A stretch of DNA of 64,000 nucleotides from Malurus cyaneus samueli (taxonomy: Eukaryota > Chordata > Aves > Passeriformes > Maluridae), in NCBI GenBank assembly GCA_009741485.1, contig CM019216.1, positions 42,132,872 through 42,196,871 of the forward strand. Direction: 5' to 3'. Under the pieces are notes generated by a model. That model was not told the DNA's origin. It ran no database searches and saw nothing but the letters and a program-made list of their open reading frames with translations. Position numbers and translations under genes: made by a program. Below are positions 6,513 to 61,500 of the stretch, one piece after another. Each line of letters opens with the position of its first letter. Position 1 is the stretch's first letter.

Positions 6513-7570
6513 CCCGAGAAGCCGGGCACCGATCCGCGGGGCCGGGGCCCGCTCCCGGCGCTGGGCGGGGGATACCGGAGCGGGCTCCGCTCTCCGGCCC
6601 CCGCGCTGCCAAGAACTTCCGAGGAGGGAGGGCGGGAGGGGAGGAAGGAGGGAGGCGCGGGTGCGGGGGGTCGGAGGGGGTTCTCCGGCGCGGCCTTACC
6701 CGTCCTTGCGGCGGGCCTTGTAACGTGCCCGTAGGTGCCTCTGCCCACTTCATCCCTCGTACTCGAACAGGTCCTCCACCCGCTCGCGGCTCGGCCGCCA
6801 GCTTCGACTTGAATCGTAGTCCATGTCTCGCCCATGGGCGGGGAGGACGGGGCGGGCAGGGGGACGCGGCGGCCGGATCAGCACTCGCAGCTGGCGGACC
6901 CCTCCCGGCCGCCGCCATGTCCGAGGCTCGGCGGGGGCGGCGGGCGAGGGGTCGGGGGGGGCGGTTTGTTTTGTTTTGGTTTGGGGCTTTTCGGCGGGGG
7001 GAGGGGGCGCGCTCCGCCGCCGCCACCGCTTCAACTGGCCTCTCTCGCGGCGCGCGCGAGGGGTGCCGGGAGTCGTAGTGCGGCTGCGGGAGCCGGCCCC
7101 CGCCGCAGGCGGGACGCCGTAGCGGCAGAACTACAACTCCGGCATGCCCGGGCCGCCCCGGCCGGGCGGCGTCGGCGCACTGCCCTCCCGGAGACACGGA
7201 GTGTTTCAGCGGCCGCTGGGAACTTGCTGACTCTTCACATTGCGGGCAGAGGCGGGAGCGGCGAAGCGCAGCCGGACGCGGCGCCTCTGGCTGGCAGGGA
7301 GCGAGGGAGGGAAGAACAGAGAATGGACTGCGGACACGCGCTCCATGCTGCGGGGCGCCGAACAGTGCAGCGACTTGTTTATCTCGCCAGCTGCCATTCA
7401 CTGGCGCGGCCCCGCCCCCCTGCGGGATGCTGCCCTCTGATTGGTCAGTGCCGCCCCGCCGTGCGGCGGGCAGGGCGGGGCCGAGCCGGCCCCAGGGCCT
7501 TGGCGCTGCGGGTCCATGTTGGAAACGGGAGCGGTGGGCGGAGCGGTACGGGCAGATGCTACTGAATAAA
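6500..7570. promoter_or_regulatory. CDK19: CpG island and promoter of CDK19
   Basis: Base composition switches abruptly to very GC- and CpG-rich sequence here and back to AT-rich DNA near 7570. The island contains CDK19 exon 1 and its upstream region on the minus strand. Visible promoter elements include a CCAAT box in minus orientation (ATTGG on the plus strand, 7440-7444) and an Sp1-type GCCCCGCCCCC tract near 7409-7419. There is no clear TATA box, as expected for a CpG-island promoter. The transcription start cannot be fixed from sequence. Long open frames on both strands inside the island are GC-composition artefacts. A divergent non-coding transcript on the plus strand is possible but not shown. 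Confidence 0.85.
6700..6824 (-). CDS. CDK19: CDK19 coding exon 1 (Mediator kinase N-terminus), frame broken by indels
   Basis: CDK19 is a cyclin-C-dependent kinase of the Mediator kinase module (with MED12 or MED13), acting in the nucleus on RNA polymerase II transcription. The minus strand from the ATG at 6824 reads MDYD, then pieces matching the family start: FKSKLAAE, then ERVEDLFEYEG, then VGRGTYGH (the glycine-rich loop), then YKARRKDG. The exon ends at 6700 before a GTAAGG donor. ARRKDG favours CDK19 over its paralogue CDK8 (AKRKDG), and AMD1 next door agrees with human synteny. The pieces lie in different frames: relative to an intact exon one base is missing before FKSK, one is extra after AAE, two are missing after EYEG and one is missing after GTYGH. 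The exon measures 125 bases where 128 are expected. Local sequence error is likelier than decay, because start, donor and CpG island are intact. The remaining exons lie beyond the left edge. Confidence 0.88.
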
Positions 7571-37066: not shown

Positions 37067-37471
37067 CTCGCTTACACAGTATGGCCGGCGACATTAGCTA
37101 GCGCTCGCTCAACGCTCTTCTCTGTAACAGGGGAACACACGGACTACAAGGAACCGAACCGCATCGCCCGCCCGCACCCCCGCTCGGACTGTAACCCGCT
37201 CACACACGCTCACGCCGCATCCGCCGCCGCGCACTCCGGGTGGTTTTCGCCCGTTAAAAAAAAAAAAATCCTTCTTCTACATTACCTCTTTTTATTTTTT
37301 TTCAATTAATATTAAGCAAATCCCCTAGAAGGTGAAACCCGCCCGGGACGGACTGGGACCCGGCGGCGGCAGCAGCGCGGCCCGTGCAGCAGCAGCGAAC
37401 GGTGGTGGCCGGGGGCGGCAGTTTGGTTGTCGTTTAATTTCTGTGGTTGTTGGTTGCCGAGTTGTCTCACC
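37067..37471 (+). other. AMD1: AMD1 5' untranslated region
   Basis: The start at 37067 is inferred from the TATA spacing and from the mammalian observation that the uORF begins about 14 nucleotides from the cap. The first bases would then be CTCGCTT, a pyrimidine-rich start. The leader is about 405 bases with no obvious intron. It contains the MAGDIS uORF at its very 5' end, then GC-rich sequence, then a strikingly AU-rich island at 37255-37319 (A13 followed by U-rich tracts), then GC-rich sequence up to the main start. Confidence 0.75.
37081..37101 (+). CDS. AMD1: AMD1 upstream ORF encoding the regulatory peptide MAGDIS
   Basis: The seven-codon frame ATG GCC GGC GAC ATT AGC TAG encodes MAGDIS, identical to the mammalian AMD1 uORF peptide. 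In mammals this nascent hexapeptide stalls the ribosome at its own stop codon when polyamines are abundant. This blocks scanning ribosomes from reaching the main start and so gives feedback control of AdoMet decarboxylase synthesis. The start has a strong context (A at -3, G at +4), but its position about 14 bases from the inferred cap should let some ribosomes scan past. The residues known to matter in the C-terminal half (Asp, Ile, Ser) are present. It lies 370 bases upstream of the main ATG and does not overlap it. Confidence 0.95.
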   Translation: MAGDIS

Positions 37472-37602
37472 ATGAAGGAGAACGGTGCACACTTCTTCGA
37501 AGGGACCGAGAAGCTGTTGGAGGTGTGGTTCGCCCGGCAGCAGCCCGCGCAGCAGGAGCCGCACCAGAGCAAGGGGTCCGGCGACCTCCGCACCATACCC
37601 AG
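37472..37602 (+). CDS. AMD1: AMD1 coding exon 1
   Basis: Encodes the N-terminus from the start Met to residue 43 plus two bases of Arg44, with the family motif [15 protein letters not shown]. The linker [19 protein letters not shown] is five residues longer than in human. It ends at CAG/GTCCGT. The donor opens an intron of about 9.8 kb that contains the assembly gap. Confidence 0.97.
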
Positions 37603-40600
37603 GTCCGTGAATGGTCGGGGCGGGGTGGGGTCGGAGCGGAAGGCGGCAGCGCTGCCTCGGAAGGGAGGCCGTGGGGCGGGAGGGCCCTGAGTGGCCCGGT
37701 GTGGCGGCGCTTCGGGGGCGATGCGGCCGCGCCGGGGAGGCAGGTTCCGGGTGGCCGTTGGGGGGCGGCCCCCGCGCTGCCGGCCGCCTTCCCGCTCCCC
37801 CGGTGACAGCCCCGGCATCTTCCGCTGAGGGTGACCTCCGCCGCCTCCAGAGACCCCCCCGAGCAGGATCTCCGTGGTCCGGCGGCGGGAGGTGGCGTGC
37901 CGGGACGAAGCCATTCCGCGCCGCCACCTCGTGCAGCCCCGGCGTTCCTGCGGGCAAACATTGGCGGAGGGGGAGCCGGAGCGGGCGTGTGCCGCGCCGG
38001 CGGGAGCGCCGCGGGGGAGCGGCCGCCGTGTGCAGTGCCTGCTGCGGGCCGGGCACGGCAGCGGCGCCCACCCTCTGCGGCGGCTCCCGCCGAGGCGGCA
38101 GTTTCGGGATGAGAAGCGTCGGGAAATCCCTGCCGCTGCGTACTGCGGAGAGCGCGGGCTCGGGAATCTCTCGCAGTTAACGAAAGCTGGGAAGGGAGAT
38201 CCCTCTCGCTGTCGCGGCGAGGATTGATGGTTCCCTCACATGGCCGGTTGTGGCGGCGACCTCCGGCACTGCGTGGCCGGACAGGTCCCTAGAGCGGCTC
38301 TCGGCCAGGGAAGCGGGCGGTACCCGGCGGCCCTTGCCGTGTCTCCCTGCGGTGCGGTGGGCACCGGACCGAGGGAGGCACCGGGAAAGGGGGTGCCCCC
38401 TCCTCCCCCAAAAGTGTGGCTGGAGCCGCGGTTTACACGTGAGTGTCCTGGCCGCGCTCCCGGGCCGCGCCGCCGCTGCCGTCGCTCTCCCCCATTGAGG
38501 AGCCGAGGCCAATGGGAGCGGGACGGCGCGGAGGGGCCGGGCCGCGCCCGTCACCCAATGGGCACGTGGGGAATGCGCTGGCGCCGCGCTCGGCGCCGCC
38601 CGGGGCGGGGGAAGGAAGGCCCGGGGCCCGCTCCGCTCCGCTCCCGGCGCACGTGTTCGCACCGGCTCCCGCCGCTCCCCTCCGCGCCGCCCAGGAATGT
38701 GCCTGCGCCGCCTTTGTTAGCTCAGGAGCCGATGGCCACCTGCCGGCACACGGGGCGGCTCTGGAGCCGTGCCGGGCAAGGCGGGCGTGAGGCGGCTGTG
38801 CTGGAGCTTGCCAATACCGTATTTTGTAGGGAGGCAGTCTTCAAACACTAAAACCAGATGATCTTCAAGGCCCCTTCCAACTTAGACCATTCAACCATTA
38901 TGGAATACTTAGACTTCTGACATGGAAGGTCCAGCTGTAGAGCTACAAAAAGTAGTGTTCTGGAAGTGTCAGAAAATGGTAGGTGCAAGCCTTAAGTACA
39001 GAGTAAAATCTGCAGAACTATGCATGAGCTTGTAGTGACAACAAAAATGGTATGTAGGTGGGATTAGCTGACATAGTCGGAAAAGGCAGGCTTGTCCTAG
39101 GCAAACAGGGCAAATCTGAAGGTTGTGATTATGTCAGTAGTTCACCTTCACCATGGTCAGCTGTTCAGCTTTTCAGGTTTGGGTGGTACCTGGAGGATCT
39201 GGCTCCCAATATATTCAGTTCTGCTTCTGCCTATTACTGTTACCCTGTGCCCTCCAGTCAGGGAGTTTGAGCAAGAGAGCTTGTCATAATGTATTTCATA
39301 TTTGGAATATGTTCCGATGGTATCATCTCCATTCCATGATGTATCCTGTTTGTCTTTTCCTTGGTTTTGATATTCCTCAGTGAATTTCCCAGATGTATGT
39401 TCCGGTAGAGTTGGCTATTCACAGATCTGAATTGGCAGTGAGCAGATAACCACCTTTTCAAAAAATAATGAATAGCCCATGTTGTGTGTGCGTGTCTGCA
39501 TGTTCATGGTTAGTGGAGGCTTCATTTCTTCTGTACAAGAAACACTGATCTGTTGATGTAATGAGGTAATTTGCTCATGTAACTTTGACTTGTGACGGTA
39601 TTTAGACCTCTCTCAATCATGTAGTTAACATGGAAATCATCAAATTTGTTTTTTATGGCTTGAGGCTTAGTGGTGTAGCAGATACAGGGTAACAACTTGT
39701 ATGGTTGAGGTCTAGGCAATCCTGGAAGGAAAATCCCGGCTGAAGTACTTGCAGATGATGAACTATGTATGGACTTCAGGAGTCCTGTAGTGTTTGACTT
39801 TAAATGTGAAAGTTTCCAAGAGTACTCGTTTGACTTCGTGTTAATGTGCAGATGTAGTTTAGAGATGGCATTCTGCAAATGCTTTCCTCGCTGACACATT
39901 CGTGCTCTCTGGTGATCCATTTGTCGGCTCAGAGTCGCGTTTGCGAAACTGCAAACTTAACTTTTAAATTGCTCAAGAGCATTTAATGTAATTGCAGTGT
40001 AGGTACTGGGACAGTTCCTTTGTGTGGTTTAGATATGGCTGTAAAGTTTTAATAGAGTAGATAAAAAACTGTTAACTGTTGAACGCGTGGTCTTTAACAC
40101 AGTGTCGGAGCTGTGAGCAAGCTTTGAAGACTTCTGTGTTAATTGGCTCTTAATGCAGCATGTTAATCGAAGTTGCTTGCTTTTTTTTGGTAGGAAGCTG
40201 TAACGTGTGTAAAAGTGCCATTAACCTGAGTCCGCTTGTAATTATCAGTGATAGTGTGTTTCTAGAATTAAATTAACTTGCACAAACATTCCCTTTTGGA
40301 AAAAAACTGTCAGAATTAAATTACCTGGTACGGCTGATAGATACAAATGGAAGTTCTGAATACAATGCATCCTGCTATGCTAATTCTGTAAAGGTGATTG
40401 AATAGGCTAGTTTATGTTGAACAGAACCTGAAATCAAAGCTGAAACCGTAGAACAATAGCTAAATTAGAATCAAGTTGCAAACCAGTTGAGCTTGCCTTT
40501 TGTATTGTAATACCTGCTTAGTAGTGAAATGTGAACCATTCATATACCGAATGACTAAGCTGGTGTTCAAAGCTAAAAATTTCCATGTTGCGTGCCCTTG

Positions 40601-43600
40601 TTAGGGATTAGATATTTTAAAGTCTTTGCTGGATATCACCAATGAAAAAAGTTCTTGAGCTGATGCAATTAAGATATTTCTTTTCCACATTTTTTCCCTC
40701 CTGTGGGCAAGCCTGCATTCTAGATAAAAGTTTGGATTAGGTGTAATGTATTTCAGGAAGATCTCTGACTATTATTTTAATTATTCAATAAATGTCTCAA
40801 CTAAAAAGTGTTGAACTTGGGGACTTTACTCTGTTGTTAAATTTTGGGGTGGTTTTGCTCACTTGTTAGTGAGTTATGCAGAAAGATCTTGTGGTTGCAA
40901 TAGTTAGTGGCAAGCATCTAAATGTGCTTACCCTGCTTATATTCAGCAGTGGAATTAAGTTAATGTTTTTGTGGTCTCAAAATAATTTGCTTTAATTTTA
41001 TTGCTTGTTCTCACTTAACGCTTTGTAAAGCATCTTTTTTCTAAAAAAATAGCCTTAAACTCTGTAAAGAAGACGGAGGATTTGCTGAAAATATGATGAA
41101 CTTGCTGCAAGCCCTGGATTTCCATGGTGACTGTGTAGTGCATTCTCTATCCCCACAATAAAATAAGCTATTTTTTCCTACAGATTATGTGTAGCTATGC
41201 ATTTTCTATCTCAAGGGTTATCAGGATCTTGAATGTACAGAAGTTTGAAACCATAAATAAATGATGCCAGTGTTAAAAGCTTGTACCTCAAGTATTCAAC
41301 CCTGAAGAATTCTCTGAAATTAAGTTTTATTTATGGGCTTTTAATCTGCTTCCTATTTGTCTTATATTACGTGGAGACACAGGCCGAAGAAAACTGCAGC
41401 AGTATGGGATAACAGTGATACAACATTCTGATCCTGTGCTACAAGGAAGCTCCCAGGCTTTCCCAAACGATACAGTCAAGGATTTGACAGGAGTCCTGTA
41501 AATCCTTGCTTTGTGCTGCACCCTGTAGCCTGAGTCAGCTCAGTGCTGCAGTGCCGCTGCACCTCTGCCCCTTTCCCCCGTCCGGAGTGGTGTTACCTGC
41601 CTGTTTGCTCAAACACTGAAGCTACAAGGAAGCTGGGCCACGAGCCCTGCTCTGCTCTTACTCCTGCAGTGCCTCAGAGCACAACTGAGGGGACTCTGGA
41701 GAGAAGGCAGGGCTGTACTAAGATAAAAGCTTCTGTCCCTGGGTCCTCGCTGAGCTTTTTTTTATGCAAGGTTATCTGGAGAACTTTGCGTAAGAGTGCA
41801 GTCCTCCCCTCATCAAAATGGATATTAAATCAACAAGATTTTAAATCTACAAAATAGTTCAAAACTACGAGGTAAAATGTTTTCTTTTAACTCAAAATTG
41901 TAATTAAAGAATGGTTTCACACAAAGGAGCCAAGCCCTTTTATTCTCAGTACTGCTGATTCTGATACTGCTTGGTGGAAGTGAAGACTTAATGTTGAAGG
42001 CTTTCTGACATTTTCCCACCTTACCACTGAAACTGCTGAATCTTTGGTTAGTCATCTTCTGTCAAAGGTTCAGGGCTATTAGAGAGACTGTAGAAAATAA
42101 ATATGCTGCTATTGGTATGTTCCTCGGGCTTTCCTAATGGTTGTTTGCTCAGTAGGAGCAGGAAGACTTGGGGCTTTTGCTAGATACTTGGCTTACAGTA
42201 TGTTCCTCCTTCTGGAGAAAATTACACTCAAATTTGCCCTGAATCTTGCTTATAAGTCCTGTTGTGCCTTGTGGTTTTTCTAAATACTTTGGATGTCCCT
42301 GGATATAAAAGACTTGGGAATTGAGTATCTTTGGACATAAAGGATGGAATCCCCGTTCCATGAAACTGCAATAGTGGTATGAGGCCTGCAACAGGAGAAA
42401 TATGCCGCCTTCAGAGCATATCTGTGGCCATCTTTGTGCCATTGCTGAAATGTCTTGGGTTTCATTTGAGAATTACGCTCTTGAGGAGTTGTCTTGGGAC
42501 TTTCTAGGTAACAAGGATTCTGTGAGGAATACTGCATTAGAATCACTTTTGATGTAGGTACAATTTTTCATTCAGGTGCCTGTCTTTCAAGATTAAGTGC
42601 ATGTCAAGGGAAAGCTTCTTAAGTTTAAGATAAGGGAGATGTGGACAGTCTCTCTGTGTATCTGTGCTCAGAGCATACAGAGGGTGTGACTTTTGTGCAC
42701 CCTACAGATACTGCCAAAGTCAAATTATCAAATTGCAAGTGCCTTGCACCTAAACTCAGGCTGTGTAAGTTGTTCAAGGTAATCTATCTTAAACAGCAAT
42801 TTATAAATTAAGTTGTATTTCTGACAGGAAGTAATTCACCTCCAGCTGTCTGCAGAGAAATATATGAGCTGCTGGGAGTTGTTTAGAAATGCTCATGATT
42901 TTTGCGTGGCACCTTCCTGTTGGAGGATGCTTTGAAACCAAGGTTCCAGCTCTGCTGACACTGACACCTAGCCAAATAGGAATTTGCCTGTTTACCTGTA
43001 GCCTGCTAATGAGGTAACTGATATTTACGTGGCTCCTAAAAATACTTAGTAGGTAACAGGTGAGGGACAGAAGATTGCTCTACAGTTGAATGCTTGATGT
43101 TAAAATAGAGTCTTATAGTCAAGATTCAAAGGCCTGTCACTTGTGGTACTACAGAACTGACAGCTGTTATATTTTAATGGAAAGCTATGCAAGAGTACAT
43201 GTATGGCTTAAGCTGTCTTTAGGAGTTCCATATGGTTTATTTCGTAAATATTCCTGCCCTACTGCAAAACGGCTTTTCTTCCCAGTGCTGACTGCCTTAG
43301 CCGAGGTGCTGTTACTGGCATAGTGTTGTAGTGTGCTTGAGGAGGCTGTTGGCTGCTGATAGGAATGAGTTTTTGATCTCTTCAAATTGCGGTTAGCACG
43401 TTCCCAGCTGGCCTGAAACAGCAGGGTTGTGCCAGGTATACTTGACTCTTGTTAAGAATGTGTTTTACCCCTGAAGGTAAAGGCTCAGAAGAGGCCAATA
43501 ACTTGCATGCAAAAGCATGGTTTATCTGTCAAGGAAAGCTTCCATCTGAAATAAAGGGGCAAATATGATGCTTTGGAACTTGGTTGAGGGGGACTGTTGA

Positions 43601-46600
43601 CTATTTGTTATAGACATGAAGCATACTTCCTACAGGTAAGCTACTTCTTAGTGATATTAGCTTTTCCCTACTGGCATAACTGGTTGGCAGTTTGAATGGA
43701 AGTTATTTGTGCTCTGGTAACAAGTCTGTTTGCAACACAGGAATAGGAGTAGATTGCTAAACCTGATTTTTTCCCCTGCTTTTGGCATGTTCTGATAGTC
43801 AAGTGTCGAACAAACAGCTTTTTACCATTCAAGCAAGGACAGTTCTTCACACTTGAGTAGATATAGTCCATTTTCATTTGCTGTTCTCTGAGAAGGTGCA
43901 GTGATTTAAGGTGCATCATGCTTGCCCATTCGAGAAACTCATTTGACTCTGGCTAAGTGACATTTATTTGAAAATTTAGAAATGGATTCTTACAACTTTG
44001 GAATGAAGTGGTCAATAAACCCACATGAGTAGGAAGTCAGTCACAAGTGTGTGTTTGCAGGTCCGCTGTAGAACTTGCTTCCAGTTTGAGCTGTCAATGA
44101 TTCTCATGGATCAAATTCTGCTATGCTTTTGAGTATAGGAGAGCAGTTTCCAAACTGGCATTATCCTGATATCTGGCTATGGAGAATAATTTAGGAAATA
44201 GTAATGCCCTTGCACATTGATCATTGAAGGGGGAATTTTGAAGAGTGGGAGTCCACAACAGCACTTTATTGAGAATTAGTCTTACTTGGTTACCCTTTCT
44301 CAGTTGGAGGCTTTGCTTCCAAGTTTAAACTTAACTCAGTTATGACACAAGTATTCTCAAATACTGGAGTTACTGAGTAGATTCTTTACTGAGTAGCTGT
44401 AATAAATGTAGTAATAACCACTGACAATTCAACTGATTTAAAAAAAAAGGAAGAAATGCAAGAGTTAGACTTGGTGAACTTAATCTGCTTGGTACAAAGT
44501 AGTCCCAGATGTTCTTCCTTAGCTATGCTTTAAACAATGGAACAAGCCAAATACTAAGGTCATCTTGTTTAAATAGATTATGTTGGATCAAATCCAGCCT
44601 TTCTTTAGTTTTCTGCACTGAACTTTAAAATGCAGATAGATACAGGCCAGTATCTCTGCAGAACTTCTCCCTGACGCGGCCAAGTCTCATCCTGGGTGCT
44701 GCAACCCTTTGTTGTCTATGTACGCTTCTAGAGCGAGCCTGGCATCTTGTCAGTTTCTAAAGTTGCAGGGTTTTTCCTTAATGCTGCTCTAAAGAGATCA
44801 AATCATGACCTTGCCCTTTATTTCTGTAAAGGCTGAACACAGCATTTAGTGTATGCTTAGCTATGGTTTCTGTAGTTCAATGGTGACAACTTGAGCAAAG
44901 CTGTGATATGCAGAGGTCTTGTGCAACAGCAGGTTTCAGCCCTTGTACCGAAATACCAGCTGTGGCACCAACAAACCTAACAGGATATCCTTTGCATCGT
45001 GGGCAGTGGACTTAACATGCAGTAGTGTGTTGTTGATGCTATACTGACCACTCACTGGACTACCAAACTTGTTACATTTTCCTCTGCTAAGTGTCTGAAA
45101 CTGAGACCAGCCATTTCCCTCAAATGCGTGCACAGAACTGCACTATTTAAAGTGTCACTTGCCTGCATGAGGCTGAGGTTTTGGCTGTCTGACCAGGTAA
45201 GAAGCTTGTGAAGGCTGAGACGTGTGCTCTTGCAAAGCCGAAGATAGTTACATGCCCATTAATACTTAGACAAGTACAAAATCAGATTTGTAGTGATGTG
45301 CAAATGGGGTTAGTACAGCTCAGCATTGGAGGAACTCTTTGTCACCTTTCACAAATGCAATGTCAGATGCTGGTGTTTATTTAATGGCAGATGAAATGTC
45401 ACTAGGGATACTGGCATGATTTGAATAGTCTAATACATTCCCTTGTTCAATTTACAGGAAGAGTGGCCAGCAAACTTATGCTGGTGTGCTTTAGCCAGAG
45501 AAAACAAAATCCTTTAGTATTTGTATAAGAAAAAGAGTGTGATTTTTCCAGGAGCATTTGGAAGATAGCCTATATTATATCTATTTCACTCTTCTCGTTT
45601 ACCAGTCTTTTTAAAGTGAGCAGCCACTTGCATTTTCATGTACACTTTAAGTTTTAGGAACAGAGCTAAATTCAGTCAGTGACATAAGTGTAGAGCTGAA
45701 TAAATGTGTGGGACTTGAGCTGAGCATTAAAAAAAACCTTTTTAATTAGACATGCAGATTGGAGTGTCTGTGCTGTCATGTCTGTGGTTGTAGAAGAGCA
45801 TTTCATCAAGGGTCACTAACTGGGATAAACCTCACTTTGATTTTAAGTATCTAGTTATATCACAGAATTCCTCAGCTTGTTCAGATGTGCACTTGATTAT
45901 GTGGGTTTTTTAAATGCATAGAATTTTCTTAAACACATTTTTAGTATCGTCAGTCTCATTTAAAAGGAGGGTATAGTGTGAGTCTGTAAGTGAACTATGT
46001 TCTGGTTGAATCACATACAAATATTACTGTTCTGGTGTAATATATACTTTAAATGGGAAAATCCTCCAATGTTAGTAATAAAGGTACAGAATTCAGTTTC
46101 AGGAGGCATTCTCCTGAATGACTGAATTCATTGAGGGGGAAGTTAAAGCATTTATTTGCTGGAGTGTTCAGAGAGGCTAAAGAATATCTGGCTATTTTAA
46201 TTATACATACACAGAATGTAGAACTTAATCTTCACAAACTGATCAGTTTTCTAAATGGAGACACTGGTGGCTGCAGGAGGAAACCTGCTGATGGAATTAA
46301 CAGTGAGTGCTCTGTCGTGGAGTACAGCCACAGGGCTTTTGCAGTGTCAGTAAGGGGTGAGAGGTCTGACTCCTGAGGAAGGATTAGGCTGACAGTTTTA
46401 CATGGGCAAGCTGAGCTTGCTTGGTGACAAAATATTGGCAATTGTTTCGTGCTCCCAGCTCCAGCAGTTATTCCAGCTCTGCTGATGGGCAGCTTAGTTT
46501 TATGCTGGGTTAGTAAATCTCTTGGCTCATGACATCTCCAAGGACAAGAGCCAGCACAAACCTGCAGGTGGAATATGCTGCGGGAAGGGAGAAGTAGGAC

Positions 46601-49600
46601 AGCTGGCAGTCTTGTAGTTTTGTGACGTCAGGAAGCTGTAACTGTTCCTGTCTTATTTATAGCAAAATTGACTAGATTGGATTCTACTAATCTGGTGTAG
46701 ACACAAGACTGAAGTGATAACCAAAGTAGTTTTTTGCAAGTCCGTCATTTCTCCTCAGTACTTGGAAGTCTTTTGGCTTAATTTGAGCCCTTGGGTTTTT
46801 GTTTGGCTNNNNNNNNNNTTCCTTGTAAAATGAGTAATAATAGTAAAGAATTGAAATATTAAACTTCTGCCACCGTACTGAATTCTAGCACTGTAGCTAC
46901 AATTTGCACTGTGTGAAAGAGTTCTGTGATCCTAATTGGTCAAAGAGGAATTCAGGCCATTGAAATTTATTAGTTTTCAGGTTTTCAGTTAAATTATGAG
47001 CTTGACTCTGAACTGGTCAGTTAAAACATCTGAATGCTAACTTGCTGGTTTATTACTCTAGTAGCTGCCAATGACTGCTGTGGTTGAACTGCACAGAGGT
47101 CCGACCTAAAGTATACCTTAAGTTACCAAACAATTAATTTTCTCTTAGTGTACATATGGGATGCAGGATTTAAGGTTTTTCTGACTCCCCTGTTTGGCAG
47201 TTGTTCTCATTCAGCAAATCATGGTAACAGATTCTGAGGAATTGTGATCCATCAGGAGCTAAGAATTGAGTATTACTGATTGTGAGAAACAGTCCATATA
47301 TGAAAAGTCTTCCCATTTTGTGCTCTCAGATCCAGTAACTCAAGACAAGACTCTTGTCTTTATTGGGCTTTTTACCTAGGTCTCCAGCAGGCTTTGGTTT
47401 GTTTAACCTGTTGTTTGTTCTCTTCTATAATTTCTTCACAGGATTGAGTGGGACAAACTTCTGGAGAATGTGCATTGTTTGATCATAAGTGTGACAAAAA
47501 CTGACAAGCAGGAAGCTTATGTACTCAGGTAAGGCACTGGCTCATTTCTTTTAGTACCTAACAGGAAAAAAGTGAATACTGTCATATGTGATCCACTTGG
47601 CTGAGAATCCAATCCTGAGTTAATGTGCTGCAGATGATGGCTACAACTTGCAGGCATCTGCTCATCATGATACTGTCATGCTTCTGTTCAGAGGTGCAAA
47701 TCTCTTCATAGTTGTCCATGTTTGTCTTTTTTCCTTTAACTAGAAGGATCAACAGAGCTGGAGTGGCTTTGTTGCTTATCACTGAATTTTGTCCTTGGTT
47801 AAATAAGTGTCCCCAATACAGAATTCTGAAATAATTTCAGCGGAATAGGCTATAGATGTCACTTACAGATCAGCAGAAAAACCTTATAGGTAGATCAGCT
47901 TTAACTGCAGATAACACAATCAACTGGAACATCTCTTGCAGCCAACCTAAGGGTGTCTGTAAGACTGTAGCTTTCCTGAAACCCTGGAATTTTTGCTTTG
48001 TGCAGCAGATAGTTGTAAGGACGCTACTTCACCATATGTTTTTCATCTTGCAGAATACTTTCTTGCTTTTTCTACGTGAACTTCACAGGCACATTTGACT
48101 TCTCTGGTTTACTTCAGATTAAAAATACTGAAGCTTTTGTATACTGAAAGACTGCCTTGAGGGCAATGTTGTGCTAAGAGCAAGCTAGTCAAATGAGCTG
48201 TGCTCAAATCTTGTTTCTTCAAGCTCCATATATTTAAAACAAAATTCTGGAAAGAGTAACTAGTTGTACTGCATCCTGGATGAAATTTAACCTTGATTTT
48301 GAATTTGCAAACAGCATTCCAAGTTGAGTTATTTAAGCCAATTTCCACTTCCATTGTTCAGTTATTTGATGAAAAGATACTTGTTAAGAATCTTTGAATA
48401 TTCTGGATGTAGTTAGTATCAAAACCTATCTCCAGTTCACTTGGGTTCTAGTTAAGTATCTGTGTAGTTAATATCTGTGTCTTATTTATATAAAGGCATC
48501 TCATATAGCTGTGCCTGTGAGCTCTCCTCAAGCATGTTTGTGTTTCTGAGATAGTTTGAGGGTGTCTAATGTGTGTGCTTTTTCCTGTGGTGTGACAGCT
48601 CTGTAATGTCGTGCTTGGTGCAGGTATTTGTTTTGTAATATTGTAACAGCTCCCAAATGTTGGCTGCATTCTCTTGGCTTGATCCATTTGCTAAGTATGT
48701 TTATGTGCCATATGCTGAGTGTTCACTTAGAGTAATGCATTTGGTTGGAGTAAGAACCAAGACCTAACAACTCTTTCCTGTATAGTTTTATGTAGGGAGT
48801 ACTTAATATATTCTTTATACCTCTTTTACAGTGAGAGTAGCATGTTTGTCTCCAAGAGACGTTTCATTTTGAAGACGTGTGGTACCACCCTCTTACTGCA
48901 AGCACTGGTTCCCCTGTTGGAGCTTGCTAGGGAGTACAGTGGGTTTGACTCAATTCAGGTAAGGTGTCAAAAGTGCTGCATCTTCCTTGGAATGTGCAAA
49001 AAGCTTTTTTACTGCTATTTTGGATTCACTTCTTTTATTAACTATTCTGAAATTAGGACATTTATGTATGGTTCCCATAAAGGGAAAATTGCAATGTAAG
49101 ATTGCTCTGCTGTGGCATTTGCCCTTTTTTTTTGTCTCTTAATGTGTGCTAACAAACAAATCAGCTATTGTGCTGAGTTACTTAAGAGTAACTGTGCCTG
49201 TGCTGTGTAGTGGAAAACAAGTTTGGAAGTAAGTTGTCTCCTGAAGCTTAGAAATTGAGGTAGGAATGATCATGTGCTTCTGAAATAGGAATGCTGGTAG
49301 GAGTGTTTCTGACAATGAAAACTTAGGTCCTGGGAAAAGTTCATGATAAATGCTTGCATTTTTCTAAATTCTTAGATTCAAGATGGTTGGATATACTCAA
49401 CGCCTAAGATGCACCTTTATTTTTTTCAGAGCTTCTTTTATTCACGTAAGAATTTCATGAAGCCTTCCCACCAGGAGTACCCACATAGGAATTTCCAGGA
49501 AGAAGTAGAGTTTCTTAATGAAATTTTCCCAAGTAAGTTCACGAAACTTGAGCAAAGTTGGGTGAAGGGTTGATGTTACGTGAGAAGTGACGAGCAGTAC

Positions 49601-50252
49601 AATAGGTACAGGCTGCCAGGCCAAGCATTCAGCAGTCCTTGCATAAAAGCCAAAAGCTAAAAATACTTATTTTCTGAATTTCTGACATTAACTTGCCAAA
49701 TTTTAATCATGCTAAACTTTATATTTGAAGTTCAAGACTTACAAGAAGAATCTCAAATTTTAAAAAAATGACAGAGTTTTGAAGGAACATGGAAGCTGTG
49801 ATACTCAGATGAGTTATTTGAAAATAAATTATAATCGTAAATGTATTTAATAGAGGCATTAAGAGTACCAGGGTTTCTCTCTGTGCATAGCTAAAGCTGT
49901 AATACCAATTTCCTGATAACAGCCTCTCAGTTGGGGTGTCCAGACCCGGTTCTGAGGGAGTTTGCTTTTCTGATTATTAACTTTGCATTCTTGAAGTTAA
50001 ATGCCTGGTTATTTGATACAGCTGCTGACTGCTTCAGTGAACCTCATGGGGTTCTGTGAAAAGCCCCGGTCTTTAAATATGAAATGAATGTAATATTTTA
50101 CATAAATGTTCAGCTTTGGTAGATTAACTGGAGACTTTTTGTGTTGTCTAGATGGAGCAGCTTATTGCATGGGGCGTATGAATTCTGATTGCTGGTACGT
50201 ATGTGAAGGGTTTGAAGTTTCTGGGGGTTTACAGTAGAACTCAACTTGGTGC

Positions 50253-50283
<31 letters not shown>

Positions 50284-52888
50284 TACATATTTGGTTTATA
50301 CTCTGCGTAGGTACCTGTACACCCTGGATTTCCCAGAGAGTCGGATATCCAATCAGCCTGATCAGACACTGGAAATTCTGATGAGTGAGCTTGACCCAGT
50401 AGTTATGGACCAGTTCTACATGAAAGATGGTGTTACTGCAAATGATGTCACTCGTGTACGTTTGCATGAATGATATTTGGGGAATGGTGGAAATCAGGCA
50501 ACAAAATGCTTCATTCACTTACTTTTTAATACAAGGTTTATTTTGTGGTGGGAGAGATGTCACACAAAGTGTCAGGTTAATGCTTTGGGAATAAAATTGA
50601 TTTAACTTTAGAATGTTTTGGGGAATATAACTTCATGTTTTCAAAGCCCGTCCTTTAGTGAAAGAAGTGATAAGCAGTGCTTTAGATGATTGGAGGCTTT
50701 TAGTCTGAAGAATGTAGAAGTGGGAATAAAACCACAATTAAAGTAACTTCAAAGGATATAGATTACAAGGAGTAAGGTTTAGAGTGGAGCTAAGGACTGC
50801 AAAGCTTAGGCAGATATCAAAATTAGGGTTAAATCATGGAGCCATTTGGATGATGGAAAAGGCAGACTTGGGGTCTAAGCATAATTTGATGGGTTTCTCT
50901 CGATTTCCCATTTTCCAAATGGGGAAATCTTGTGACATGGACAAATTTTTCTGACAAGTACACTGACTTAATCTTGTTTTCCATCTTAGGCTTTGATTCT
51001 CATACTGTATTTGCTATTGAGATTTGGCTGTAGCTCAGGTACTGTGGTAAATCAAAACGCTTGGGATTGCATTTCTTTCTAGAGTATTTAGTATATCCTT
51101 ACTCTGGAGTAAACGTAAACAGCCTTCACTTTGTGGCTAATGGTTGAAGAGAAGCTCCATTTTTCATTTCAGCAGCAAAAGCAAATATGTTTTGGAATTG
51201 TAAGTTGTTTTCTTCTCTTGGATGGATGCAGGGGCTCTGTAAGAGGCGGTGTGATAGCTTGCATGCAGCTTGTCACTGCCATTTGTGTAGTGACAGGATG
51301 CAAAGCAAGTTCATCTACAGTGGTGCAAGTAATCAGACTGACTTGTTTTTGGGAGAATTCTGGTATCCTGTTTGTGAAGTAGATATTCATTCTGCCTTTG
51401 AGTTAAATCTGAACAGGTGTAAAGATGTATGGTAAACAGAGCTGTTTTAACTTCGTTTCAGATGAGTGGAATTCGTGACCTGATACCAGGTTCTGTTATT
51501 GATGCTACAATGTTCAATCCTTGTGGGTATTCAATGAATGGGATGAAATCGGATGTAAGTTTTACACTCAATAATAATAATCATTGATAACTGAAAGAAA
51601 GAAATATTTGGTGCTAATAATACCTTAATTTATTTTTCAGGGAACTTACTGGACTATTCACATCACTCCAGAACCAGAGTTTTCCTATGTTAGTTTTGAA
51701 ACAAACATAAGTCAGACCTCTTACGATGACCTGATTAGAAAAGTTGTAGAGGTTTTCAAGCCAGGAAAATTTGTGACAACTCTCTTTGTTAATCAGGTGA
51801 GTTTTCTTGCTTGCATTAGCTTATCAGCTGATGAAATACATATAGACACAAATGAAGCAAGGTGTGAGATTTTTACTGGAGATTTAACAGTTTCCAGTCT
51901 GTCTCTCTATTTGGGTGTAGTTTCTTTGCAGTAAAAATTTTCTTCAGTTTTGCTTTGGCATGTACTAAATCTGAGTTTCAGAAAACTTCAGAAACAGTAA
52001 TGTGAGGCATCCTAGTCTCAATATTCTAATGACTTCCTGTGTAGTTCTGTATGGGCATAATTTCATGCTTTTGCATTTTTCTGGATTTGCCTACACCTCT
52101 CAGTTGCATAACAGCTGCTGTTAATGGTGTTGCTCTCAGCTAATTGTAGAACCATAAAATTATTTGGGTTGGAAGGGACCTTAAAGATTATCTCGTTCCA
52201 ACCCCCTACCATGGGCAGGGGCACCTTCCACTAGAGCAGGCTCCTCAAAGCCCCATCCAACTTGGTCTTGAACAGTGCTGGGGATGGGGCATCCACAGCT
52301 TCTCTGGGCAGCCTTTCCAGTGCCTCACCACCCTCCCAGTGAAGACCTTTTTCTTAATCTCTACTCTAAACACACCCTCTTTCAATTTAAATCTGTTAAC
52401 CCTTGTTCTACCACTACAAGCTCTTGTAAACAGTCCCTCTCCAGGTCTCTTGCATCCCCCATGAGGCACTGGAAGGTGCTGTAAGGTCTCCCCAGAGCCT
52501 TCTCCAGGCCGAGAACCACAATTCTCTCAGCCTGTGTCCATAGGAAAGGTGCTCCACCACCCATGGTGGTTCACAGTACTATATGTAGGGAGTAGAATCA
52601 CTCCTTGTGAATGAAACTTCCTGCACCATGGTCAAGAAGAGTTTTAAAACATATTGGTTTTAAGAATCATACATGAAATAAAGTGTGCTAATCTATCTCT
52701 AAATGACGGCTTTAAAAGTAACTTTCACCTTTTTTTTTGTTTTCCAGAGCTCTAAATGTCGCACAGTGTTTTCCTCTGCCCAGAAAATTGAGGGGTTTAA
52801 ACGTCTTGATCACCAGATTGCCCAATTCAGTGATTATAATTTTGTTTTTACCAGTTTCACAAAAAATCGCCAGCAACAGCACAGTTGA
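37472..52888 (+). CDS. AMD1: S-adenosylmethionine decarboxylase proenzyme (nine coding exons)
   Basis: AMD1 decarboxylates AdoMet in the cytosol, supplying aminopropyl groups for spermidine and spermine. Joining 37472-37602, 47442-47528, 48832-48958, 49430-49532, 50152-50194, 50311-50455, 51462-51554, 51641-51796 and 52748-52888 gives 1026 bases, 341 residues plus UGA, with GT-AG introns and no frame break. Human is 334 residues; the seven extra lie in exon 1 (two near the N-terminus, five in a Gln/Pro-rich linker). The self-cleavage site is LSE/SSMF, with Ser75 becoming the pyruvoyl group (human Ser68). Catalytic Cys89 (human 82), processing Ser236 and His250 (human 229, 243), Glu10 and Glu13, substrate-stacking Phe230, and putrescine-site Asp181, Glu185 and Glu263 are all present. 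The start ATG has context CACCATGA. Regulation is by the MAGDIS uORF and probably by the readthrough extension after the stop. Confidence 0.98.
38436..38655. promoter_or_regulatory. AMD1: E-box and CCAAT cluster in AMD1 intron 1
   Basis: Three canonical CACGTG E-boxes (38436-38441, 38563-38568 and 38650-38655) and two CCAAT boxes (38509-38513 and 38555-38559) lie within 220 bases, about 0.8-1.05 kb downstream of the first coding exon but still in the CpG island. CACGTG binds MYC/MAX and USF-type bHLH factors. The polyamine gene ODC1 is a known MYC target with E-boxes in its intron 1. A MYC-responsive enhancer or an alternative intronic promoter is inferred. Confidence 0.5.
38845..38903 (+). 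repeat. CR1 3' end stub (sense)
   Basis: The segment AACCAGATGATCTTCAAGGCCCCTTCCAACTTAGACCATTCAACCATTATGG is the terminal 60 or so bases of a CR1 copy. It lies directly at the downstream edge of the CpG island in AMD1 intron 1. Confidence 0.85.
38904..47441 (+). other. AMD1: AMD1 intron 1, main part
   Basis: AT-rich sequence between the CpG island and exon 2. Apart from the gap at 46809-46818 I saw no transposon, RNA gene or extra exon here. Open frames are short and carry no recognisable protein segment. Confidence 0.7.
46809..46818. other. Assembly gap, 10 N
   Basis: Ten undetermined bases inside AMD1 intron 1, about 620 bases before exon 2. A round 10 suggests a placeholder, so the true length is unknown. 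No coding sequence is expected to be missing because the spliced frame is complete. Confidence 0.99.
47442..47528 (+). CDS. AMD1: AMD1 coding exon 2
   Basis: Encodes Arg44 to the first bases of Ser73, including [15 protein letters not shown]. The acceptor is TTCTTCACAG and the donor is AG/GTAAGG. The processing site Glu-Ser lies immediately across the next splice junction. Confidence 0.97.
48832..48958 (+). CDS. AMD1: AMD1 coding exon 3 (self-cleavage site and catalytic Cys)
   Basis: Begins by completing Ser73, then Glu74-Ser75, the proenzyme cleavage bond, followed by [20 protein letters not shown] with catalytic Cys89. It ends at Gln115, in phase 0, before GTAAGG. Confidence 0.97.
49430..49532 (+). 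CDS. AMD1: AMD1 coding exon 4
   Basis: Encodes [20 protein letters not shown] and following residues through IFP plus one base of Asn150. The acceptor is TTTTTTCAG and the donor is A/GTAAGT. Confidence 0.96.
50152..50194 (+). CDS. AMD1: AMD1 coding exon 5 (43-base microexon-like exon)
   Basis: Encodes the conserved [14 protein letters not shown] and two bases of Trp164. The reading frame fixes the donor as TG/GTACGT, since the next exon supplies the G that completes Trp. It is followed by an intron of only 116 bases containing a TA repeat. Confidence 0.95.
50257..50283. repeat. (TA)n microsatellite in AMD1 intron 5
   Basis: A 27-base pure TA run occupies nearly a quarter of the 116-base intron 5 and ends 27 bases before the exon 6 acceptor, in the region where the branch point and pyrimidine tract should lie. 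Confidence 0.95.
50311..50455 (+). CDS. AMD1: AMD1 coding exon 6
   Basis: Encodes [20 protein letters not shown] and following sequence to DVTR (residue 212), including the putrescine-site acids Asp181 and Glu185. The acceptor is TCTGCGTAG, with a weak pyrimidine tract because a TA repeat sits just upstream. The donor is CGT/GTACGT. Confidence 0.96.
51462..51554 (+). CDS. AMD1: AMD1 coding exon 7
   Basis: Encodes residues 213-243, [20 protein letters not shown] then [11 protein letters not shown], including substrate-binding Phe230 and processing Ser236. Residue 213 is Met where human has Glu. The following intron is only 86 bases. Confidence 0.96.
51641..51796 (+). CDS. AMD1: AMD1 coding exon 8
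   Basis: Encodes residues 244-295, starting [20 protein letters not shown], with processing His250 and putrescine-site Glu263, and ending VTTLFVNQ before GTGAGT. Confidence 0.96.
52147..52556 (-). repeat. CR1 LINE fragment in AMD1 intron 8 (antisense)
   Basis: The plus strand shows the reverse complement of the CR1 3' region: AGAACCATAAAATTATTTGGGTTGGAAGGGACC, then CCATGGGCAGGGGCACCTTCCACTAGAG, GGGGCATCCACAGCTTCTCTGGGCA and further blocks to the ATAGGAAAGGTGCTCCA part. It fills over 40 percent of intron 8 and is fairly well preserved. Confidence 0.93.
52748..52888 (+). CDS. AMD1: AMD1 coding exon 9 and first stop (UGA)
   Basis: Encodes residues 296-341: [20 protein letters not shown], then DYNFVFTSF and the variable Gln/His-rich C-terminus RQQQHS, followed by UGA at 52886-52888. 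The frame continues open beyond this stop (see the extension at 52889-53266). Confidence 0.97.
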
Positions 52889-53266
52889 TTAAGAATGAAG
52901 AAAAAGCGCAAAAAGAAATCCCATATAGAAGGTGGTGGTTGCTTTCTAGTTAATGATTCAGGGGGCCATGCTTTCCACTCCCACCACCTTGTAGTTGTGG
53001 AAAGCCCTAGGTGTAACCATAGTATAACCATTTTGAATTGTATGCATTATTATATCAAGGAGTTAGATATCTTGCATGAATGCTCTCTTCTGTGTTTAGG
53101 TACTCTATGCCACTCTTGCTGTGAAATTGAAGTGCATGTAGAAAAATCTTACTGTATGAAACTTTACAACACTTGTAAAAATGATTCAGGTAGAATTACA
53201 CACAGTATAGTTTTTCTCCAAGTATCACCAAAAATTCCCCACAGACAAGGCTTTCGTCCTCATTAG
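52889..53266 (+). CDS. AMD1: AMD1 readthrough extension ('tail'), 125 codons in frame after UGA
   Basis: Directly after the AMD1 UGA stop the same frame stays open for 125 codons to UAG at 53264-53266. It starts LRMKKKRKKK, a strongly basic cluster, continues with a Gly- then His-rich part and Cys-containing middle, and ends QGFRPH. A conserved frame of nearly this length (127 codons in human) has been reported downstream of vertebrate AMD1. There, rare readthrough ribosomes stall near the second stop and queue back toward the first, limiting the number of proteins made per mRNA. The retained open frame here agrees with that role. The product is probably not an abundant protein. The internal AUG at 52895 is not thought to be used. 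Function in this species is inferred from the family. Confidence 0.85.
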   Translation, partial: LRMKKKRKKKSHIEGGGCFLVNDSGGHAFHSHHLVVVESPRCNHSITILNCMHYYIKELDILHECSLLCLGTLCHSCCEIEVHVEKSYCMKLYNTCKNDSGRITHSIVFLQVSPKIPHRQGFRPH

Positions 53267-53505: not shown

Positions 53506-53511
53506 AATAAA
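53506..53511 (+). terminator. AMD1: Proximal AMD1 poly(A) signal (AATAAA)
   Basis: Canonical AATAAA about 620 bases after the stop codon. With a leader of 405 bases and 1026 coding bases it predicts a transcript of about 2.1 kb before tailing, matching the shorter mammalian AMD1 mRNA. It lies 240 bases beyond the extension's second stop. Confidence 0.8.
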
Positions 53512-57617: not shown

Positions 57618-58523
57618 CATAGAATCACAGAATCATTTGGGTTGGAAGGGATCTAAAAGATCACCTGATTCCAACACCTTACACTAGACTGACTTTCTTA
57701 AAGCCCCTTCCAGCCTGGCCTTGACCACTTCCAGGGATGGGGCATGCCCAATTTTTCTGAGCAACCTGTTCCAGTGTCTCACCATCCTCACAGTAAAGAA
57801 TTTCTCCCTAATACCTGATCTATACCTTTGCTCATTCCCACTCGTCCTGTCACTACATGCTCTAGTAAATAGTCTCTCTCCATCTTTCTAATAGTCTCCC
57901 TTCAGGTACTGGAAGGCTGCAAATAAATCACTCAGAGCCTCTTTTCCAGGCAAAAAAATCCACATTTTGTCAGCCTTTCCTCAGAGGAGAGGTGACACAT
58001 CAGTAATAAATTTGGTGTCCCTCTGGACTCACTGCAGCAGGTCAATGCCCCTGCCGTGCTGAGGACCCCAGAGCAATTTGCAGCACTCCAGGTGAGGTCT
58101 TGCCAGAGCAGAGGGGCAGAATCCCCTCCCTTGCCCTGCTGGCCGTGCTGCTTTGGATGCAGTCCAGGACATTTTGGCTTTCTGAGCTGGGAGTGCTCAT
58201 GTCCAGCCTCTCATCCACCGGCAGCCACCAGTCCTCAGCAGGGCTGTGCTTGATCTGTTCATCTCCCAGCCTGGATTGATAGGAGAGTTACCCTGACACA
58301 GATGTGGTGACTTGGACTTGGTCTTGTTAAAACCTCATGAGGTTCCCATGGCCGACTTCTTGAGCTTGTCCAGATTCCTCTGGATGGCATCCCATCCTTC
58401 CGATGTGCCAGCCACACCACTTAGTTTTGTGTCATCTGCAAATTTGTGGAGGGTGCACTTGATCCCTTCATCTGTGTCATTAATGAAGATATTAAATAGC
58501 ACTGGTCCCAATATGGGTGCCCC
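57618..58523 (-). repeat. CR1 LINE, 5'-truncated (antisense), with reverse-transcriptase remnant
   Basis: The minus-strand element has its 3' end at 57618 (plus strand CATAGAATCACAGAATCATTTGGGTTGGAAGGG) and runs up to about 58523. Its upstream end on the minus strand translates as [20 protein letters not shown] followed by [10 protein letters not shown], which contains the ADD motif of the CR1 reverse transcriptase. The frame is soon lost, so the copy is dead. At about 900 bases it is the second longest CR1 in the window. Confidence 0.93.
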
Positions 58524-61500
58524 AATATTGCCTTCTATATTAGAAAGGTGCAAAGTTGTGGTTTGAGTTTGCAAAGTAACCATAGACATGGAACTTCTGA
58601 CTTTTATTTCCACTAGAAATGGACTTCTGGCTCCACTGTCTAGTTTCCATCTATTAAATTTCATTGTCTTACTTTATGGGCAAAATTTAAGTATTTGGTA
58701 CTTGTTTTATGCTATTAAAAGTGCTGCACCAACAAAGCTGTAAAAAGACAAGGAAAAACCAGCATAGGATTGAACAGAGTTGCAAAATTGCAGTTACAGG
58801 GCTAAGTTTCAGATTCTGTGTGTGGGCAGGAGTTACACAGATGTAAGAGAACAGGACAAAATGTTCCCAATCCATTGTTCTTGCTCAGAAACTTAGAGGA
58901 ATTTGGTGCCCCTTCATCATTTGCTTCCTCCAGAAGAGGAAGCCCTGACCTCTGTGCCTGCCAGAGATTATTTATTGGAACACACCCTATGACAGCTTCA
59001 TCAACACACCGGCCCCTGTAGCTTTACAGCCCTCTCTAGTCCCTAAATTTGGACTTATTTCTTTCGAAGAGGAATTTGCTAAGTATCTGTCATCTTCACT
59101 AGATTCATCTTTAACAGCACTGACCTTAAGAGTTAGAAAATATTTAGCTAAATACAAGGTTAGATTTCAAATACAAAGTTAGAATCCTGGCTATAAAAAG
59201 GTAAATAAAGCCAGATTGTACTTAACTAAAGGATTCCTTCTTAGCTGCTGTGTTATTTTGCACTCAGAGCCCCTAACAGCCTAGGCAGCAGTTACTTAGG
59301 TATTCTGTGCTATTTCAGGATGCAACTTAAAATTAACCAGAGGGACTTAGCCCTTGAGGGCTGTTTTTTAACAGTAACCCTCTCCAAATTCTCTTTTTGT
59401 TAAATATGCTTCTCTCCTGTTTTTATTTCATGGTGCTTTTCTAAGGCAAATAAAGTGCTGTTGCATTATCTGAGAGTAGAGGGACGAGTGCATTGTTATT
59501 CAGTTGTTAAAGCATCCTCAGTACTGTTACAATATCCTGCAAGGCATGTGTCATCAAGTCTGCCCATATATTCACTAGACTTGGAGACTTGGGTACTTTC
59601 TATGCTGCGTATTGTCTAAAGCCACATTATCAGCTACATTGTAGGTAGGATGCTCTACCCAAACCATCTTTCCCGCTGCCCAAATTTGCCAGTTTTAAGG
59701 GTTCTTACTGTCATGTATTTTACAGACACATTCAGATAGTGCAGAGTTGTTTTTCGTATTTGATGATTTAATATTTAGTAATCTCTAATTCTCAAATCTT
59801 AATATCTTGTTTAGAGTGAAAATCTGATATAAAACCAAAATTGTTGATAAAGTTGCTGGCTTAAATAAAGACCTGATTTATTTACTCCCCTAAACTGTTA
59901 TGAAATATGGGGGGGCTTAGCGGAGGAGGACGGAAAAATAAGAAAATTACTCATTCCCATTATAGAAGATGTATTTTCCCTAGTGTGCTGTAGAGAAAGC
60001 CAACATACATGAGAACAAGATAAAGCTCCAAAGGCTTCAGGGTGTAATTGCTGAGGCTACACTACCTACAGCGAAAGGATACTGAGTATGAAACTAGTGG
60101 GAAAAGGCAGTAAACCAAACAGACAAACAGCCATTGTTGTAATTGTCTGTTGTTTTCTATGACTAATATTGGGGTTAATGTTAGTATTTAATTCATTCAG
60201 CTGTGCTTTCACTGGTTTTAGGCAGATACTCAACTGCAAATTCATAGTTTTAAGCATGGTAAAAATTTTACTTGTAATTGTACTCTGTTGTTAAGTGCCA
60301 TGACATGAAAAAGCTGAACAATTTATATTTGTGCTTTTCAGTTCTTCCATTTAGTGTGTTGCTACATAACAGAAAGATGTTTTCTAATTACCTGCTCTCT
60401 TAACATTGTAATCTCTTAAATACTTCATTCCTGAAATATTTAAACTATGCAGACCACCCAGAAGGGCCCAGCAGACAAGAAGTTTCAAACCAGTGATTTT
60501 TTTTCTTCAACTCCTCATGTTACTGTGTCAAGCAGTAGGTGAGAAATGAACCAACTGCTCAAAAAAAAGGTATGCAGTTTGATTTTTCACGAAGAAAATA
60601 GTCCAGAGATATGCAGAAATCACATTTAAACAAGCTTTAATAAAATTGTCTTAACTCCTCTTTAAAGAATTGTAATCCTAGCTATTCTTACTAAATTTGG
60701 ATAACTGCAATCTCACTGAGCCACTTCTCAATTTCTTACAGTAGCCAAGGAGAATTAACAGACAAAAAATAGACAGCTACAGAAACAAATGTTCAGTCCA
60801 TACTGAATATCTCAAAATATTCGATTTTTTCCAGTTCATGTGGTGCTAACTCAAGAAATTTTTACAATGTATCTATTCCATGTGTAATACACATTTTAGA
60901 TACAAAGTAAATACACACTGGTATATATTTATATATGTAAATATAGAAGACTATAAGTGATACCTAAAAAAATAAGCAGTTCTAGACTACCATTTTTGTA
61001 ACAGTTTCTCAAGTTTGATTATTTTGGAATCCTTAATTTTCAGGATTGTTTAAGACTCTGAAGGCACTTTAAATTATTTTGATCTCTGCAAATCTAACCA
61101 AATTGCCCTCTAGCAGTAGAGCCTGAGTTCTGTTGTTCCAGGAACCATACATCCCATACAATTTCTTAATGGACCTCTACCCATCTACAGAAAGATAAAT
61201 TTTTAAAGCATTCTGGGGTGAAATGGGAAGATTTGAAGTCAGGCCTTTTTGCAGATGCTGGATCATTCCTCCCACTGCCTCAGGGACTCTGTTGGAATCA
61301 GAGGAATGGTTGCTTGCATACTGAGGAGAATAGAAATGTCACATGCATCTCCCCCTTAAAAGGATGTTCTGTTGCCATACAAAAAACAAAAAGCCATGCA
61401 GTATTTTACTGTCCTGATAAGCAACCCAGAATGAAGCTAAATCTGATGTGATCTGAAACCACACAGAAGACAAACAACTGCCTCTTTAAATACTTTAAGG

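Follow-up and report, generated by a model that had tools for sequence, protein, structure and literature searches.

What is the open reading frame (ORF) that follows the stop codon of AMD1 in Malurus cyaneus samueli, and how would ribosomes come to translate it? We addressed this question in a window of 64,000 nucleotides (nt) (the whole stretch analyzed: assembly GCA_009741485.1, contig CM019216.1, positions 42,132,872 to 42,196,871 of the forward strand), in which the AMD1 frame continues past its UGA to an in-frame UAG. Judged by its sequence, this tail is an orthologue of the published vertebrate AMD1 C-tail; the element as such is already known. We consider it very probable (about 0.9) that the tail is a translated 3' arrest element, fed mainly by stop-codon readthrough, that would lower the output of its mRNA. 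The paper by Yordanova et al. (Nature, 2018) is reportedly the one in which the vertebrate C-tail was discovered. The features that define the gene and its tail are listed below in window positions.

37472..52888, + strand: AMD1 coding sequence (CDS), 341 codons, defined by GT-AG junctions and a match to PDB 1msv (E=3.3e-202)
37472-37602, 47442-47528, 48832-48958, 49430-49532 and 50152-50194, + strand: AMD1 exons 1-5, GT-AG
50311-50455, 51462-51554, 51641-51796 and 52748-52888, + strand: AMD1 exons 6-9, GT-AG
52886..52888, + strand: UGA, the main CDS stop of AMD1
52889..53263, + strand: AMD1 tail, 125 sense codons, supported by translation, 75 homologues and a single locus in its own genome
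53264..53266, + strand: UAG (TAG), stop of the tail and expected stall site

AMD1 is intact on the + strand of the window, with nine exons and a single terminal TGA. Its best match is human AdoMetDC (1msv, residues 5-341), which has the same C-terminal end. Exon 1 encodes five extra residues relative to the human enzyme. The initial annotation, made from the letters alone, had described 125 open codons between the UGA and the UAG, with a lysine/arginine block (MKKKRKKK) at the start and QGFRPH at the end, and translation confirmed each of these statements (N-terminal end LRMKKKRKKK, C-terminal end QGFRPH). It had also put the chance of a frame staying open this long at 0.25% with equal base frequencies; our recomputation returned the same value (2.5e-3), and use of the tail's own base composition gave 0.017% (1.7e-4). 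The other two + frames contain 12 and 11 stops across the tail stretch. Among 3819 overlapping + frames sampled across the window, 45 are also open for 125 codons, so the length of the tail taken alone is suggestive and weaker evidence than it sounds.

Homology, as read from the recovered relatives, is decisive for treating the tail as real. The last 21 residues (105-125) match PDB chain 9q7q, "AMD1 C-tail," at E=2.5e-6. When 5.8 billion predicted proteins were searched, 78 candidates emerged; 75 passed E<=10 against the tail, each of them with E<=3.8e-4, and some of these look frameshifted. Two profile searches, one of which scored just the 7989 candidates with the most shared words, raised the number of tail relatives from 75 to 94. 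Those with a named source come from two fish, Cirrhinus molitorella and Ataeniobius toweri, and the labels "tetrapod-like" and "fish-like" used here for relatives were assigned from resemblance. Within the bird's own 1.07-Gb genome the tail had two matches, both of them pieces of one locus, this tail. No Pfam family was found at E<=1 for the tail or for the relatives P0083 and P0045, and AlphaFold2 modeling of the tail (55 sequences) gave a mean predicted local distance difference test (pLDDT) score of 42, with no confident fold.

The vertebrate AMD1 C-tail (PDB 9q7q) and the window tail have the same gene, in-frame place after the UGA, and size, and they have in common the clamp and hook residues, a stop directly after FRPH, and a MAGDIS upstream open reading frame (uORF). 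Compared with the 125 sense codons found here, available accounts of the human tail give 127 residues (PMC13025110) or a 125-codon ORF (PMC8831848). Spacer residues differ from those of the human tail. The initial identification of the extension as the vertebrate AMD1 tail is upheld: the sequence is conserved, and all residues linked to arrest by cryo-electron microscopy and alanine scanning are present. Like the XBP1 and human cytomegalovirus (hCMV) arrest peptides, the AMD1 tail is described as a nascent chain that remodels the peptidyl-transferase centre, although the conformations are distinct (PMC13025110).

Conservation along the tail was measured in an alignment of 55 sequences, comprising 54 proteins from the first protein search together with the window. 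The remaining 21 of the 75 proteins were left out as extended, frameshifted or truncated calls, including P0022 (R119K) and P0038 (R123C). The conserved blocks, with their mean conservation in this alignment, are as follows.

52895..52918, + strand: lysine/arginine (K/R) block MKKKRKKK, residues 3-10, mean 3.14 bits
53063..53143, + strand: central core LDILHECSLLCLGTLCHSCCEIEVHVE, tail residues 59-85, mean 3.55 bits
53210..53263, + strand: arrest peptide VFLQVSPKIPHRQGFRPH, residues 108-125, matching 9q7q, mean 3.85 bits

The spacers are less conserved, at 1.73 bits for spacer 1 (residues 11-46) and 1.76 bits for spacer 2 (residues 87-107), and conservation of the central core nearly equals that of the arrest peptide. 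The human construct that stalled ribosomes in vitro is reported to start at CCEIEVHVEK (PMC13025110); 18 of the 27 central-core residues lie outside that construct and are dispensable for stalling in vitro. A conserved core with two thirds of its length beyond the stalling construct suggests that the selected function includes more than stalling. Block spacing is variable: 58 sequences show 22 different distances between the K/R block and the HSCC motif (65 to 97 residues), and in the 67 of 76 sequences that allowed measurement the distance from HSCC to the last residue takes nine different values, within 42-53. The conserved blocks share one frame despite these varying spacer lengths, with the caveat that a protein search favors open frames. 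A constant position of the central block just beyond the exit tunnel was rejected, given the spacing of 42-53 in 67 sequences but 33 in P0083.

The arrest peptide contains the residues that are placed in the clamp and hook by alignment with 9q7q.

53231-53233, + strand: clamp residue K115
53243-53245, + strand: clamp residue R119
53252-53254, + strand: clamp residue F122
53255-53257, + strand: Arg hook R123

The human tail is reported to arrest ribosomes with eRF1 and ABCE1 trapped; Phe124, Arg121 and Lys117 form a clamp, and the Arg125 hook holds the GGQ loop of eRF1 away (PMC13025110). According to the same source, the stall-to-release ratio falls three- to fivefold in clamp mutants, the hook mutant leads to release, and stall peaks are found in most vertebrates with data (PMC13025110). 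The human equivalents of K115, R119, F122 and R123 are K117, R121, F124 and R125, and all four are present in the window. In the filtered 55-sequence alignment, R119 and F122 occur in 55 of 55 sequences and R123 in 54 of 55, while P0022, which was left out of it, has Lys in place of the clamp Arg. A recognizable arrest end was present in 82 of the 94 proteins and missing from 12, by a pattern in which the clamp phenylalanine must be F and the clamp arginine may be R or K. In these 82 ends the hook position is occupied by Arg (79), Cys (2) or His (1), and the clamp-lysine position by Leu (40), Lys (36), Arg (4), His (1) or Gln (1); of these variants, those with Leu, Arg or His appear fish-like. 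Among the relatives compared, then, the hook is nearly universal and the clamp lysine is not. Some relatives (P0006, P0010, P0016, P0017 and P0078) have Pro as the final tail residue, vs. His in most, which would place proline at the stalled P site.

Frame, gene, arrest residues and conservation are established in the window. Readthrough, stall, clamp and hook are carried over by analogy from papers on the human tail, and we infer both that they would act likewise in this bird and by what path the stall would lower expression. A small share of the ribosomes ending AMD1 would pass the UGA, mainly via stop-codon readthrough, translate the 125 codons, and halt at the UAG. The nascent peptide would bend back inside the exit tunnel, with K115, R119 and F122 as its clamp, and R123 would be pushed into the peptidyl-transferase centre, leaving eRF1 unable to release the chain. 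The stall would reduce the output of that mRNA, for which collision-based quality control, together with loss of the extended protein, is a likelier cause than a long counting queue. G418 is reported to increase the mammalian stall peak (PMC7089771), which fits readthrough as the feed of the stall, and readthrough is better supported than reinitiation as the entry route.

A readthrough-stimulating RNA structure was considered and rejected, since the 120 nt from the UGA gave a z-score of -1.20 and 24 of 200 shuffles folded as well. That segment (window 52886-53005) contains a GGUGGUGG/CCACCACC stem from about 40 nt past the UGA, not significant by shuffling at the same z of -1.20, which lies inside the stretch encoding GGG and HHL, residues that by eye are kept in many tetrapod-like tails.

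Several observations weigh against a readthrough-fed arrest element. The conservation described above is that of residues and says nothing firm about selection on codons. When conservativeness of substitutions was compared with that of random single-base changes, the whole tail was not significant in sequences with the clamp lysine (P=0.148) or in those without it (P=0.686). By region, the K/R block (P=0.388), spacer 1 (P=0.688) and the arrest peptide (P=0.39) were not significant, and the central core (P=0.043) and spacer 2 (P=0.010) were the lone regions to stand out. Pattern searches of viral and genome contigs returned pattern matches only and no confirmed DNA of a relative. The clamp lysine is missing from fish-like tails. 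No strong readthrough context is conserved, since the next residue implies different bases after the UGA in different relatives. In addition, two diverged fish-like relatives, P0083 and P0084, appear to carry the tail out of the CDS frame, where in-frame readthrough could not reach it; these tails would be reachable by termination-reinitiation or by -1 frameshifting.

The frame of P0083 and P0084, which are 80% identical in the alignment, was assessed from the fit of AMD1 to their shifted sequence. With a shift of one base, 42 of 47 (P0083) and 43 of 48 (P0084) AMD1 C-terminal residues are compatible, against shuffled maxima of 0.47 and 0.46, and a two-base shift fits poorly (15/35 and 19/48). 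Over the last 20 CDS residues the shifted fit is 17 in P0083 and 18 in P0084, and no protein beyond P0083-P0086 scores above 13. The CDS frame in P0083 and P0084 may end at a stop located 2 nt upstream of the tail AUG or overlapping it. Within the tail, the two agree in 8 of 8 columns of the K/R block, 22 of 28 of the central core, 8 of 22 of spacer 1, and 21 of 49 of spacer 2 plus the arrest peptide, the 49 including 27 in which P0084 runs on beyond the end. This pattern suggests that the tail blocks are still under selection in these proteins.

Such relatives raise the alternative of entry through termination-reinitiation, for all or some of the ribosomes that translate the tail, at an AUG shortly after the stop; the product would be a free 123-residue arrest peptide with no AMD1 fusion.

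52895..52897, + strand: ATG (tail Met3), 6 nt past the UGA, candidate reinitiation start with A at -3

We regard this route as unlikely, yet the conservation of its start codon speaks for it. Met3 is the sole invariant residue within tail positions 1-63, present in all 18 crossing sequences of the alignment (the window, 15 in-frame ORF calls, P0083 and P0084), and it is not a start-calling artefact because the crossing ORFs start upstream. The 15 in-frame calls, from among the 94 proteins, cross the CDS end with Trp at the UGA position because the caller decoded UGA as Trp, so genes with other stops could not appear. The residues between stop and AUG vary (LR, LRK, LGK, LEN, GLR, GSR, TSE, GCR, GCV, GCA and GCM), and in nine of the 18 a non-Arg residue before Met implies a purine at -3, the window having A there. 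In P0083 and P0084, where the tail is read in the -1 frame relative to the CDS, all three conserved blocks (K/R, central core and arrest) are retained. For long cellular ORFs, coupled reinitiation is documented in CASQ2 and GAD, whose second AUG is located at the stop of the long ORF or near it, as in the tail; the AUG in AMD1 differs in lying 6 nt beyond the stop, in the CDS frame, and the downstream CASQ2 protein is about 82-fold under the upstream one (PMC5972666). Against this route, reinitiation following long ORFs is considered very rare, G418 increases the mammalian stall peak (PMC7089771), and 15 of the 17 crossing relatives in the alignment have the tail in the CDS frame, although recovery favors such relatives. 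P0085, P0086 and P0036, which fall outside the 18, look degenerate and have no arrest end, seemingly cross in a shifted frame without a Met-K/R start. The Met may also be retained for the peptide or for stop context, and the out-of-frame DNA of P0083 and P0084 was deduced from their translations. Because the AUG lies in the CDS frame in the window and in the in-frame relatives, downstream footprints cannot separate readthrough from reinitiation there. No test of reinitiation at the AMD1 tail was found in the literature searched, from which the 2018 discovery paper was absent. The word "reinitiation" is absent from the main texts of PMC13025110 and PMC8831848 as available, while a longer text of PMC8831848 counts two, perhaps in reviewers' reports; the available reinitiation passages of PMC7089771, PMC9841425 and PMC11146595 (12 of 14 places) are not about the AMD1 tail. 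The idea is a lead and not a demonstration, made up of one lineage with the tail out of frame and the conserved AUG that follows the stop. Were the AUG used, the model would shift from readthrough and a queue to termination and reinitiation.

For an arrest element fed by readthrough, the consequence of the stall also has to be weighed. The initial annotation had repeated the proposal that stalled ribosomes queue back into the CDS and so count the rounds of translation of each mRNA. This model came from the discoverers of the tail, and reporter output is indeed reduced by the tail in a vector free of an internal ribosome entry site (IRES) (PMC8831848). In this form the model is weak, and we think it quite improbable: Wangen and Green observed a stall peak but no queue despite strongly raised readthrough, and suggested quality control at the stall as an alternative (PMC7089771), and the disproportionate loss once taken as evidence for a queue was traced by the original authors to readthrough context with an IRES (PMC8831848). 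That the region is instead conserved as RNA or DNA of the 3' untranslated region, its open frame being incidental, is very improbable. The mostly non-significant conservativeness test would suit such a region, as would the 381-nt tail RNA folding somewhat better than its shuffles (z=-1.89; 1 of 100 as good), but the last 21 residues match the solved arrest peptide 9q7q, the blocks hold one frame despite 22 K/R-to-HSCC and nine HSCC-to-end distances, and no Rfam family was found in the 64-kb window. Decoding of the UGA as selenocysteine would also account for a long open frame after it, and its probability is close to negligible: Rfam contains selenocysteine insertion sequence (SECIS) models, none of which was found at gathering score within the 64-kb window, and human AMD1 and the window AMD1 have the same C-terminal end.

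Some relatives with an irregular frame were set aside as frame evidence and taken as degenerate (P0085, P0086, P0036 and P0038). P0085 (18 of the last 20 CDS residues) and P0086 (14 of 20, a weak fit) are also out of the CDS frame, and neither has an arrest end. By eye, both lack the K/R block, and P0085 resembles joined exons in its upstream part. Also by eye, P0036 shows an apparent shifted-frame crossing of the CDS end, and in P0036 and P0038 the frame seems to change within the K/R block. P0087 (E=1.2) was rejected for its order, in which the CDS end lies 3' of the tail start.

Upstream and downstream of these elements, two further features of the AMD1 transcript were located.

37081..37101, + strand: MAGDIS uORF (ATG..TAG), intact, with the exact translation MAGDIS followed by a stop
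53506..53511, + strand: AATAAA hexamer 3' of the tail, a likely poly(A) signal read from the sequence

MAGDIS is described as a polyamine-responsive stalling peptide in the 5' region of AMD1 (PMC13025110). Elsewhere in the window, at about 6.8 kb on the minus strand (6720-6840), lies a CDK8/CDK19-like first exon (MDYD...RERVEDLFEYEG; match to PDB CDK8, E=0.0026). Its frames are broken, as though single bases had been gained or lost, possibly through assembly errors in GC-rich DNA. A CDK8/CDK19-like gene near AMD1 agrees with the human gene order. A reverse-transcriptase fragment at 58338-58673 on the minus strand (Pfam RVT_1, E=0.005, under the curated cut-off) is probably a piece of an old long interspersed nuclear element.

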